From Deltaproteobacteria bacterium (GTDB lineage: Bacteria; Myxococcota; Myxococcia; SLRQ01), in NCBI GenBank assembly GCA_029210625.1, contig JARGFU010000004.1, positions 147,329 through 211,328 of the forward strand: 64,000 nt of DNA, in the 5' to 3' direction. The position numbers were made by a program, and so were the translations under genes. Shown one piece after another: positions 46,430-49,501 of this stretch (position 1 is the first letter of the stretch; every line of letters begins with the position of its first letter). The notes beneath the pieces are model-generated. The model did not search any database, had not been told where the DNA came from, and saw only the letters and a list, made by a program, of their open reading frames with translations.

Positions 46430-47170
46430 ATGAGCTATCAGAATGCCCTCATCACCGGTGCGTCCAGCGGGCTGGGCGCCGGCCTCGCCCACCGCTTCGC
46501 TCAGAAGGGCACCCGGGTCTTCGCCCTGGCCCGCCGCGAGGACAAGCTCGCCGAGCTGCGCGAGGCCAGCGGCGAGAAGATCGAGCCGGTGGTGCTGGAC
46601 GTGAGCGACACCGACGCCCTCGTGGCGAAGATCCGGGAGCTCGACGCCGCCTGCGGCGGCCTGGACCTGATCATCGCCAACGCCGGCGTCGGGAAGACCA
46701 AGAAGGCCTCGCGGATCGACTGGGAGAACTGGGTCGAGCCCACCCTGCGGGTGAACGTCCTGGGCGCCATCGCCACCCTCACGGCGGTGCTGCCCCGGAT
46801 GGTGGAGGAGCGGCGCGGCCACCTGGTCGGCGTCTCCTCGATCGCGGCCATCCGCGGCCTGCCGGGCTCGGGCGCCTACTCGGCGAGCAAGGCGGCGCTC
46901 TCGACCTACCTCGAGACCCTGCGGGTCGACCTCAAGTCGAAGGGCATCACCGTGACCACCCTCGAGCCGGGCTTCGTGAAGACGCCCCTGACCGAGGGCG
47001 GCAAGCAGCCCATGCCCTTCCTGATGGAGCTCGAGCCGGCCCTCGACGCCATGATGAACGCCATCGAGAAGAAGAAGGGCCACCTCGCCTTCCCCTGGAC
47101 CCTGGCGAGCGCCGCGGGCATGGGGCGGATGATCCCCCGCAGCCTCTACAGCCTCCTCGTGGGCCGCTAG
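46430..47170 (+). CDS. Short-chain dehydrogenase/reductase
   Basis: 246-aa classical SDR. Cofactor motif TGASSGLG is at 9-16, the NAG motif at 84-86, and the catalytic residues are Ser137, Tyr150 and Lys154 (YSASK). The Arg-rich ARREDKL after the second strand favours NADP(H). The C-terminus (FPWTLASAAGMGRMIPRSLY) is basic/hydrophobic and may touch membrane or substrate. It is read from ATG 46430 with TAGAGG 6 nt upstream (46418-46423) and no ribosome binding site. The last ~90 bp are duplicated 206 bp downstream (see the 47077-47640 repeat). The substrate is unknown. Confidence 0.88.
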   Translation: MSYQNALITGASSGLGAGLAHRFAQKGTRVFALARREDKLAELREASGEKIEPVVLDVSDTDALVAKIRELDAACGGLDLIIANAGVGKTKKASRIDWENWVEPTLRVNVLGAIATLTAVLPRMVEERRGHLVGVSSIAAIRGLPGSGAYSASKAALSTYLETLRVDLKSKGITVTTLEPGFVKTPLTEGGKQPMPFLMELEPALDAMMNAIEKKKGHLAFPWTLASAAGMGRMIPRSLYSLLVGR

Positions 47171-47272
47171 GGAAGAGAGCGCCCGGCCGCGGCGCGCACA
47201 GCGCCGCAGGGCGCGGTCCCGTGACCCCCGAGCTCGAGCTGGGGGGTTCGGGGGGAGCGGTGCTCCCCCCGA
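47077..47272. repeat. Tandem duplication, copy 1 (SDR 3' end plus terminator)
   Basis: This 196-bp block covers the last 94 bp of the SDR gene and the following 102 bp. Its second copy begins 206 bp later at 47283. The two copies are identical over 47087-47169 and over the 105-bp part 47168-47272 (copied at 47536-47640); only two bases in the first 10 differ. It is uninterrupted, unlike copy 2. Confidence 0.9.
47250..47270. terminator. 9-bp GC hairpin after the SDR gene (copy 1)
   Basis: GGGGGGAGC (47250-47258), loop GGT, GCTCCCCCC (47262-47270): a perfect, very stable stem about 80 nt after the SDR stop. It is probably the original bidirectional terminator of the convergent SDR and M23 genes and is repeated exactly at 47618-47638. 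Confidence 0.6.
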
Positions 47273-47282
47273 TCTCGACGGC

Positions 47283-47376
47283 GGGCCACGCCGCCTTCCC
47301 CTGGACCCTGGCGAGCGCCGCGGGCATGGGGCGGATGATCCCCCGCAGCCTCTACAGCCTCCTCGTGGGCCGCTAA
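47283..47376 (+). pseudogene. Duplicated C-terminal fragment of the SDR gene
   Basis: A 31-codon remnant (from Gly-His-Ala-Ala-Phe-Pro to the stop) nearly identical to the SDR C-terminus at 47077-47170. Only CTC to GCC at one codon differs, and the stop is TAA instead of TAG because of the adjoining insertion. It has no start or upstream domain, so it is a duplication scar, not a gene. Confidence 0.88.
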
Positions 47377-47535
47377 ACCAGAGATCATGATTCCCGAACA
47401 GCGGATGGCGCCGCGGACGTGCCCGGATGCAAGGAAGGGTGAGGGAGCCTAGCCTTAGCTAGGTGACCGAGGCCTGACGCCGCAGGCGGGTGCGGCCTGC
47501 AAGCCAGGCGTGATCGGGAATCGTGATTTCTGGTT
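47376..47535. mobile_element. 160-bp MITE-like element with TIRs and TA target duplication
   Basis: Left end 47376-47397 begins AACCAGAG and right end 47514-47535 ends in TTTCTGGTT; the two 22-bp ends are inverted repeats with two mismatches. The element is flanked by TA on both sides (47374-47375 and 47536-47537), while the uninterrupted copy 1 has a single TA at 47168-47169, which proves an insertion with TA duplication. It has no reading frame. Internal hairpins include CCTAGC-CTTA-GCTAGG and GCAGGC-7 nt-GCCTGC. TA targets suggest mobilisation by an IS630/mariner-like transposase encoded elsewhere. Confidence 0.82.
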
Positions 47536-47640
47536 TAGGGAAGAGAGCGCCCGGCCGCGGCGCGCACAGCGCCGCAGGGCGCGGTCCCGTGACCCCCGAG
47601 CTCGAGCTGGGGGGTTCGGGGGGAGCGGTGCTCCCCCCGA
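47536..47640. repeat. Tandem duplication, copy 2 (distal 105 bp)
   Basis: Exact copy of 47168-47272, separated from its proximal part (47283-47375) by the inserted 160-bp element. It ends one base before the stop codon of the M23 peptidase gene. Confidence 0.9.
47618..47638. terminator. 9-bp GC hairpin (copy 2) after the M23 gene
   Basis: Same stem-loop as at 47250-47270, here immediately downstream of the minus-strand M23 stop (47641-47643), so it can serve as that gene's terminator. Confidence 0.6.
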
Positions 47641-48753
47641 CTACTTGGACGCAACTTTGCCGCCGACGCCGATCGAGAGCTGATCGAAGAGCCGCTCGCG
47701 CTCCCGCTGGAACGCCGCCTGCTGCGCCTCCGGCAGCCGATCGTGCCGGGTGCGGTGGTGCTCGAAGGGATCGACGATCTTCTTGCCCTTCTGGAGCTGG
47801 TAGTGGAGGTGGGGCGCCGTGCTGCGGCCGGTGTTGCCCGAGTAGGCCACCACCTCGCCCTGCTTCACCTTCTGACCCGGGCGGAGGCCCTCGGCCATCC
47901 GATCGAGGTGGAGGAAGAGGACGTGGACGCCGTCGGGCCCGGCGAGGTCGAGGCAGTTGCCGTTGCGGCGGGTCGACCAGTTGATGCGGCTGACGGTGAC
48001 GTCGAAGGGCGCCTTCACCGGCGTGCCGATCGGCGCCTTGAAGTCCACGCCCTGGTGACCCCGGCCGTCCTTCAGCAGCGAGGTGATCTGCTCGTAGGTG
48101 TCGATGGGGCTGCCCTCGAGGCGGGCCTCGATCTCGACCCCCTGCCGGTCGAAGTAGCGCAGGGGCCCCTCGGCGTCGGGGCGGAACGCGTAGGCCTCGA
48201 AGGTCTGGCCCGCCTTGCCGCTCTTGAAGCGCAGGGCGAGGATCTTCGGCTCGGGCTCCCCCGGGAGGTAGAGGAGCTCGATGGCGTCCCCCGCCCGCAG
48301 GTCGCGGGCCGGGTCGAGCCACCAGACCAGCAGCCGCCCGGTGACGGCCGTGAGGGGATCGGCGAGGTCGCGCGGCAGGCGGCCGGCGAAGGTCTGATAG
48401 AGCGAGCGGTCGATGGGGCCACCGAAGGCCCGCGGACCGACCGGCTCCCCCGCGGAGCCCGCGGTCTGGGCCGCGGCCTCGGGCGCCGGCGCCGGATCCA
48501 CCGGGATGGGGCGCGACCCCGCCGCCGCGGCGTGCTCGTCGACCTCCACCGGGGGGAGCGCGGCCTCGGGGGCCGGGGCGGGCTCGGGCTCGGGCTCGGC
48601 CACCGCCGGCGCGGGGACGGGCGCCTCGCTCTCGGGCGCGATCACCTCGGCGGGATCGTCGTCCCCGGAGCCGAGGAGCAGGGGGGAATAGGCGACGGCG
48701 GCGGTGACCAGCGCGGCGACGATCAAAATCGGCAGGACGATCTTGCTACTCAT
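47641..48753 (-). CDS. M23-family peptidase (LytM domain), membrane-anchored
   Basis: 370-aa protein starting at ATG 48753 behind AAGGAC. A single N-terminal membrane segment (~5-25) is followed by a Pro/Ala/Glu-rich linker (~30-110), an intermediate beta domain (~120-225, LYQTFAGRLPRDLADPLTA; opioid-growth-factor-like organisation of envelope LytM proteins) and the M23 domain. Zinc ligands: HxxxD in GHQGVDF (~232-237) and HLH in APHLHYQ (~313). A charged C-terminal helix follows. It probably trims peptidoglycan cross-links from the periplasmic face or activates amidases; all zinc ligands appear intact, favouring an active enzyme. Confidence 0.87.
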   Translation of the reverse strand: MSSKIVLPILIVAALVTAAVAYSPLLLGSGDDDPAEVIAPESEAPVPAPAVAEPEPEPAPAPEAALPPVEVDEHAAAAGSRPIPVDPAPAPEAAAQTAGSAGEPVGPRAFGGPIDRSLYQTFAGRLPRDLADPLTAVTGRLLVWWLDPARDLRAGDAIELLYLPGEPEPKILALRFKSGKAGQTFEAYAFRPDAEGPLRYFDRQGVEIEARLEGSPIDTYEQITSLLKDGRGHQGVDFKAPIGTPVKAPFDVTVSRINWSTRRNGNCLDLAGPDGVHVLFLHLDRMAEGLRPGQKVKQGEVVAYSGNTGRSTAPHLHYQLQKGKKIVDPFEHHRTRHDRLPEAQQAAFQRERERLFDQLSIGVGGKVASK

Positions 48754-48859
48754 GGGGCGTCCTTCATAGACGAAGGCGCCGACGGATCCAAAGAGAATGC
48801 AATCTTTCCTCGTGGTCCATGGCTGGGATTTTCCGGACGCATGGAGTAGATCGACCCCC

Positions 48860-49501
48860 ATGCGGCTCTACGATCTTCCGCGCTCACCCTGGAGTCAGCA
48901 GGTGCGCATCGTCCTGGCCGAGAAGGGCCTGGCTCACGAGCGCCACATCGTCCTGCCGGGGCAGGAGCTGGAGAGCTGGTACCAGGAGCTCAACCCCCTG
49001 GCCCGCACCCCCACCCTGGTCGACCGCGACCTGGTGCTGCGGGAGTCGAGCGTGATCGCCGAGTACCTGGAGGAGGCCTACCCGGACCACCCCCTGATGC
49101 CCGAGTCTCCGGCCGAGCGCGCGGTGGTGCGGATGGTGGTGAGCTTCGTCGAGCAGTACCTCGGCCCGCCGATGGAGGACCTCGCCCTCGCCCTGGCCGC
49201 GGGTGACGAGGTGGACCCCCACGACCTGGAGGAGCTGCGGGCCGACTGCGAGCTGGCCTTCGAGCTCCTCTCCGAGATCCTGGTCGCCGGGCAGACCCAC
49301 GCCGCCGGTGAGCGCTACTCCCTCGCCGACGTGGCGCTGGCCCCCTTCCTCCTGGGGATGGTCGAGCCCCTCGACCTCGGCGAGACCCTGGCCGCCCAGG
49401 AGAACGTCGCGGCCTACTGCACCCGCCTCTCCCAGCGGACCTCCTCCCGGGTCGTCGAGCAGAGCCTCGCCGAGTGGGCGGAGATGATCTCGAACCTCTA
49501 G
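48860..49501 (+). CDS. Glutathione S-transferase family protein
   Basis: 213-aa cytoplasmic protein with a thioredoxin-like N-terminal domain (MRLYDLPRSPWSQQVRIVLAE; Ser10-Pro11-Trp12-Ser13 at the active-site turn), the conserved cis-Pro loop (ARTPTLVDRDL) and the glutathione-binding ESSVIAEYLEE. The all-alpha C-terminal domain has the GST N-capping SLADVALAPFL motif. ATG 48860 was chosen for the domain boundary; TAGATC lies 7 nt upstream (48847-48852) and there is no ribosome binding site. The catalytic residue and substrate are undetermined; it could be a stringent-starvation-type homologue. Confidence 0.88.
   Translation: MRLYDLPRSPWSQQVRIVLAEKGLAHERHIVLPGQELESWYQELNPLARTPTLVDRDLVLRESSVIAEYLEEAYPDHPLMPESPAERAVVRMVVSFVEQYLGPPMEDLALALAAGDEVDPHDLEELRADCELAFELLSEILVAGQTHAAGERYSLADVALAPFLLGMVEPLDLGETLAAQENVAAYCTRLSQRTSSRVVEQSLAEWAEMISNL

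Follow-up and report, generated by a model that had tools for sequence, protein, structure and literature searches.

A MITE-type hairpin element inserted at CTAG in a duplicated SDR gene end, and a structured core that recurs across bacterial groups

Within the 64,000-nucleotide stretch analysed here (the window), from a genome labelled Deltaproteobacteria bacterium, a 160-bp hairpin element splits the second copy of a tandemly duplicated gene end and carries a 59-nt core that recurs in other bacterial groups. These elements most likely form a new superfamily of MITE type whose one-strand core is conserved. The locus itself is probably the outcome of a 196-bp duplication of the end of a short-chain dehydrogenase (SDR) gene followed by insertion, at CTAG, of a MITE-type element mobilised in trans, with the core serving the element's own cycle. 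The usual view takes MITEs for passive products of deletion that are defined by their ends. Ends that vary around a strand-specific inner fold, kept across bacterial groups, suggest instead that the interior helps the element, and offer a module that can be tested.

The two copies of the duplication have 196 nt each, and their sole differences are the adjacent bases 47084-47085, close to the left edge, so that 187 nt (47086-47272) are identical. The original prediction was of a 206-bp duplication in which the distal 105 bp are identical. The tandem duplication and the identity both hold, but the latter extends over the whole 187 nt, and 206 is the start-to-start distance, since a 10-nt spacer (47273-47282) separates the copies. 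Likewise, copy 1 was correctly placed at 47077-47272, whereas direct comparison with it resolves copy 2 into 47283-47375 and 47538-47640, the right part having been set to begin at 47536. The stop codon of the convergent M23 peptidase gene adjoins the end of copy 2 (Table 1).

Table 1. Coordinates of the features at the duplicated locus (positions in the window)
Feature	Position	Strand	Basis
SDR (short-chain dehydrogenase) gene, intact, source of the duplication	46430..47172	+	Pfam adh_short, E 6.2e-47
Stop codon TAG of the SDR gene, inside the empty CTAG site	47168-47172		Sequence
Duplication copy 1: SDR gene end, empty CTAG target, two G+C-rich hairpins	47077..47272	+	Sequence
Duplication copy 2, split by the element	47283..47640	+	196 nt after subtracting the insert and one TA; 2/196 mismatches
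Left TA of the target duplication (C-TA)	47374..47375		Sequence
Non-autonomous hairpin element, 160 bp, one of 21 full-length genomic copies	47376..47535	+	Repeat search, fold
Left terminal inverted repeat AACCAGAGATCATGATTCCCGA	47376..47397	+	Sequence
Conserved 59-nt core: covarying stem-loop, G-U pair, tandem G-A steps (= L004:1554-1612)	47427..47485	+ only	Covariance model R1, alignments A2, A3
Right terminal inverted repeat AACCAGAAATCACGATTCCCGA	47514..47535	-	Sequence
Right TA of the target duplication (TA-G)	47536..47537		Sequence
M23 peptidase gene, convergent; neighbour outside the element	47641..48861	-	Pfam Peptidase_M23, E 2.2e-25

The insert proved to be as predicted, 160 bp long with imperfect terminal inverted repeats (TIRs) of 22 nt (2 mismatches) and a TA on both sides, and copy 1 keeps the intact empty site GGCCGC-TAG-GGAAG, that is, the uninterrupted CTAG to which the prediction had pointed. 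The change from TAG to TAA in the duplicated SDR fragment is also borne out. Given that the CTAG of copy 1 is uninterrupted, duplication first and insertion second, the order originally proposed, is the most parsimonious history of the locus. In an unlikely alternative, the element came first, the locus was duplicated together with it, and copy 1 then lost the element by precise excision or gene conversion. The order of events is reconstructed rather than observed and such a precise loss is possible in principle; however, one extra event is required, and the CTAG of copy 1 bears no footprint.

The insert is not a chance feature of the SDR locus, considering that it folds as a single hairpin over its whole length and that a whole-genome search returned 21 full-length copies, of which 7 are identical, with identity in the remainder at 91-99% (E 3.9e-81 to 1.2e-60; copy length 163-164 bp). 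Uniqueness of the insert had been named beforehand as the outcome that would count against the prediction, and it was not observed, since the ends and the TA duplication recur with the copies. Of the features that define a MITE, we thus found TIRs, a TA target duplication with its empty site, and many near-identical copies without a transposase gene. The insertion had been described as targeting TA, which is indeed duplicated, but the specificity extends beyond these two bases. C precedes the left TA in 21/21 copies and the complete C-TA...TA-G is present in 17/21, against a background in which CTAG makes up 3.4% of the NTAN sites in the window (15/443; insertion preference p ~5e-22), so that the target is CTAG and not TA alone. 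Two copies in the same orientation, at C1:221410-221573 (L011) and C1:222906-223068 (L019), enclose about 1.3 kb with a gene of the phosphotransferase family (Pfam APH, E 3.9e-38).

Gene stops next to the copies were called with a codon model for which the window served as training data. According to these calls, the element provides the stop of an adjacent gene in 12/21 copies, and 4 of these 12 serve two convergent genes at once. As both ends of the element read TAA and each follows a C, insertion turns a C-TAG stop into C-TAA and the protein is unchanged. Together, the CTAG preference and the terminal TAA mean that an insertion at a stop can spare the proteins, also where two convergent genes share it. 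Special targeting of stop codons was considered and rejected: ordinary CTAG sites in the window and its flanks lie at stops about as often (13/23; Fisher p = 1), so no such targeting is needed. Among the gene stops served on a single side, counted from the copy list, 4 are in sense and 4 in antisense relative to the core strand, which argues against an orientation-dependent function in 3'-UTRs. Relative to the local GC skew, the orientations of the 21 copies divide 8 vs 13, a split that carries little information. It is improbable that the repeats are selected host hairpins, for instance bidirectional transcription barriers between convergent genes, and not transposable elements. The strong hairpin fold would agree with such a role, as would the dozen copies at gene stops and the four between two convergent stops, but CTAG sites of the background are found at stops equally often, a TA duplication with its empty site points to transposition, copies have no orientation preference, and a T-tract terminator was looked for and not found.

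The + strand of the insert forms a single hairpin of -100 kcal/mol (z -9.5), while the - strand folds at -77 kcal/mol (z -5.8). This gap arises because the G-U wobbles occur on the + strand only and the core is one-sided. In the TIR arms themselves, the wobbles have no strand bias (36 vs 31), for which reason the arms resemble transposase sites that work at the DNA level, and an RNA role across the whole element, as would be argued from a wobble bias in the arms, was rejected. Judged from these sequence patterns, the core looks like a single-stranded fold and the TIR arms like sites that act at the DNA level. No Rfam 15 family reached its gathering score for the element family.

A DNA search gave matches to the interior of the element in a MAG of the host's own family (G001, CSSed162cmB_222, labelled Deltaproteobacteria), where the core sits between TIRs quite unlike those of the host, and a pattern scan of contigs extended the list to Novosphingobium aerophilum and a further proteobacterial MAG. 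The core was searched with a covariance model of 59 positions; N. aerophilum yielded 5 copies, and the proteobacterial MAG 3, one of them weak. By taxon, matches were obtained in 25/200 genomes of the Sphingomonadaceae (the family of N. aerophilum), 12/195 of the host's phylum (host included), 3/385 of the class of N. aerophilum (G147 and G279 also being matched in the family search) and 3/150 of the phylum of the proteobacterial MAG, with E-values per genome down to 5.6e-16 outside the host's phylum. A convergence or chance likeness of unrelated GC-rich hairpins, with no wider family, is very improbable: although about 59 nt alone are in common and the TIRs and lengths differ, such E-values, the many letters that are nearly invariant across 64 cores and the mere 3/385 matches in the class of N. 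aerophilum speak against it, the last of these indicating that the model does not simply match GC-rich genomes by chance.

The hairpin elements that bear the core are 160-290 bp long and have unrelated TIR sequences. They mostly adjoin TA, in the majority of relatives within a YTAR context. Many relatives are about 270 bp long and enclose, within the TIR stem, the core arm and another long arm, together with a small hairpin; one of these elements folds at -190.6 kcal/mol (z -15.8). TIRs differ even inside one genome (L122 vs L144 in G388; L124 vs L145 in G480), and in several relatives from the host's phylum, such as L162, L172, L175 and L178, the TIR test used found no clear TIR. A sub-group of about 160 bp in G127 and G128 (L163, L165, L173, L176, L177 and L179) has TIRs that diverged from copy to copy, and the two base pairs between its inner G-A steps vary among copies, being either GG/CC or CG/CG. 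Solitary TIR ends were also seen in N. aerophilum (G147), at C64:147699, C36:7812, C11:95143, C57:8680 and C59:9567.

The core alignment comprises 64 sequences, 63 of them distinct, and 95.6% of its cells pair. Changes on both sides of a pair were counted in 167 cells, compared with 46 ± 5 in shuffles; sliding the partners gave at most 35 doubly changed cells. Neither control corrects for the relatedness of the sequences. RNAalifold alone recovers 15 pairs, 14 of them with compensatory change. At one pair, 55/64 cores have G-U and 8 have G-C, while A-U does not occur. The Watson-Crick pairs are interspersed with four tandem G-A/A-G steps (columns 8-9/59-60, 13-14/53-54, 16-17/50-51 and 21-22/46-47), which form a one-strand ladder; the third is intact in 59/64 cores and the fourth in 52/64, or in 59/64 when AA is also accepted at the 5' side. 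Between the inner steps, the two base pairs vary in concert (GG/CC, CC/GG, CG/CG). All these structural features can be read on one strand only. More tentatively, the core might be a structured RNA or single-stranded DNA of a new class, with four tandem G-A modules under a covarying G-U stem, that is essential to a superfamily of miniature transposons switching their TIRs across phyla.

The partner transposase was searched by protein family, using two Pfam transposase families. In the draft genome (64 contigs, 98% complete), neither DDE_3 (PF13358, IS630-type) nor DDE_Tnp_1 (PF01609, IS4/IS5-type) had a match; the partner is thus either absent from the assembly or a member of a family outside these two. 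An IS630/Tc1-mariner transposase with matching ends, as suggested originally, was accordingly not found. In a pattern search of the genome allowing three mismatches, the TIRs occurred solely as element-sized pairs and as six solitary ends, so that no pair spans a unit of IS size and no autonomous element with these ends, hence no parent of matching ends as described for MITEs, was detected. A matching autonomous parent is usual for MITEs but not required, and parents are often lost. Compared with IS630/Tc1-mariner elements, the TA duplication is present and a DDE_3 transposase with matching ends is not; compared with the IS5/IS427 group, TA is duplicated within YTAR (here CTAG), and a DDE_Tnp_1 transposase is lacking. 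IS630-type elements also use TA targets. The six solitary ends of the host genome lie at C19:42002, C19:70891, C52:9161, C4:207699, C1:233979 and C10:93725 (L022-L024, L027, L029). In five of them the outermost letters are TAG, not TAA (TAGACCAGARATCAYGATTCCCGA and its variants). At least L029 coincides with the TAG that ends a histidine kinase/response regulator gene, and no transposase genes were seen among the neighbouring genes examined. Blastn of plasmids and phages with the insert, the core and two relatives gave chance matches or none, and viral contigs had no matches to the element.

We propose that a recent 196-bp tandem duplication of the SDR gene end came first, and that a non-autonomous hairpin element of the MITE type would then have inserted into the CTAG of copy 2, leaving TA on both sides. 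A TA-duplicating DDE transposase, IS5/IS427-like or IS630-like and absent from the assembly, would act on the TIRs in trans. The core, folded as RNA or as single-stranded DNA, would serve the life cycle of the element itself and would not be a 3'-UTR element of host genes, considering that it persists while the TIRs change and has no orientation preference.

In the open-access literature, we did not find a published description of the core element family, and a 2024 review of prokaryotic MITEs (PMC10969869) mentions neither CTAG nor names in Myxococc- or Sphingo-. Its closest analogues are RUP and the repeats ERIC/IRU, Correia/NEMIS and CIR (PMC2229807). The latter three resemble the element in being palindromic and intergenic with stable RNA folds, and CIR also has two arms and a linker. 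However, the described lengths of ERIC (127 bp) and CIR (~110 bp) set them apart from the 160 bp found here, and a tandem G-A core is not described for any of the three. A GANTC site, GATTC, lies in the TIR arms of our element, whereas in CIR GANTC is in the terminal loop. In the plasmid search with TIRs, the sole matches were Rhizobium leguminosarum repeats on pRL12, pRphaN261b and pRL9 (L180-L182), which are multi-copy two-arm palindromes starting CTAGAGCCTTTCCGGGTTAGATTGAAGC. They have no significant match to the core model, but they resemble the core family in their CTAG ends, in their two-arm fold and in a TIR that is identical at 26/28 positions to that of a Sphingomonadaceae element (L142). 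In Brucella, IS711 (IS5 family) duplicates the TA of YTAR and is associated with the Bru-RS palindromes (PMC2266754), which parallels the present case of TA-duplicating transposition associated with palindromic repeats; IS711 encodes its transposase, while no DDE_Tnp_1 protein was found in the host genome. IS870 shares the 5'-CTAG-3' target and its link to a stop codon (Fournier et al. 1993, cited in PMC6471742), but it is an autonomous IS in which, according to the title of that work, CTAG makes the stop of its own ORF1, whereas the present element supplies the stops of host genes. Finally, RUP is a bacterial MITE with a TA target and the ends of IS630-Spn1 (PMC2229807). Our element differs from RUP-type MITEs in that no parent IS was found, in its CTAG target and in a structured core common to elements with other TIRs, but like them it is short and gene-free, with TIRs, TA at its ends, near-identical copies and presumed mobilisation in trans.
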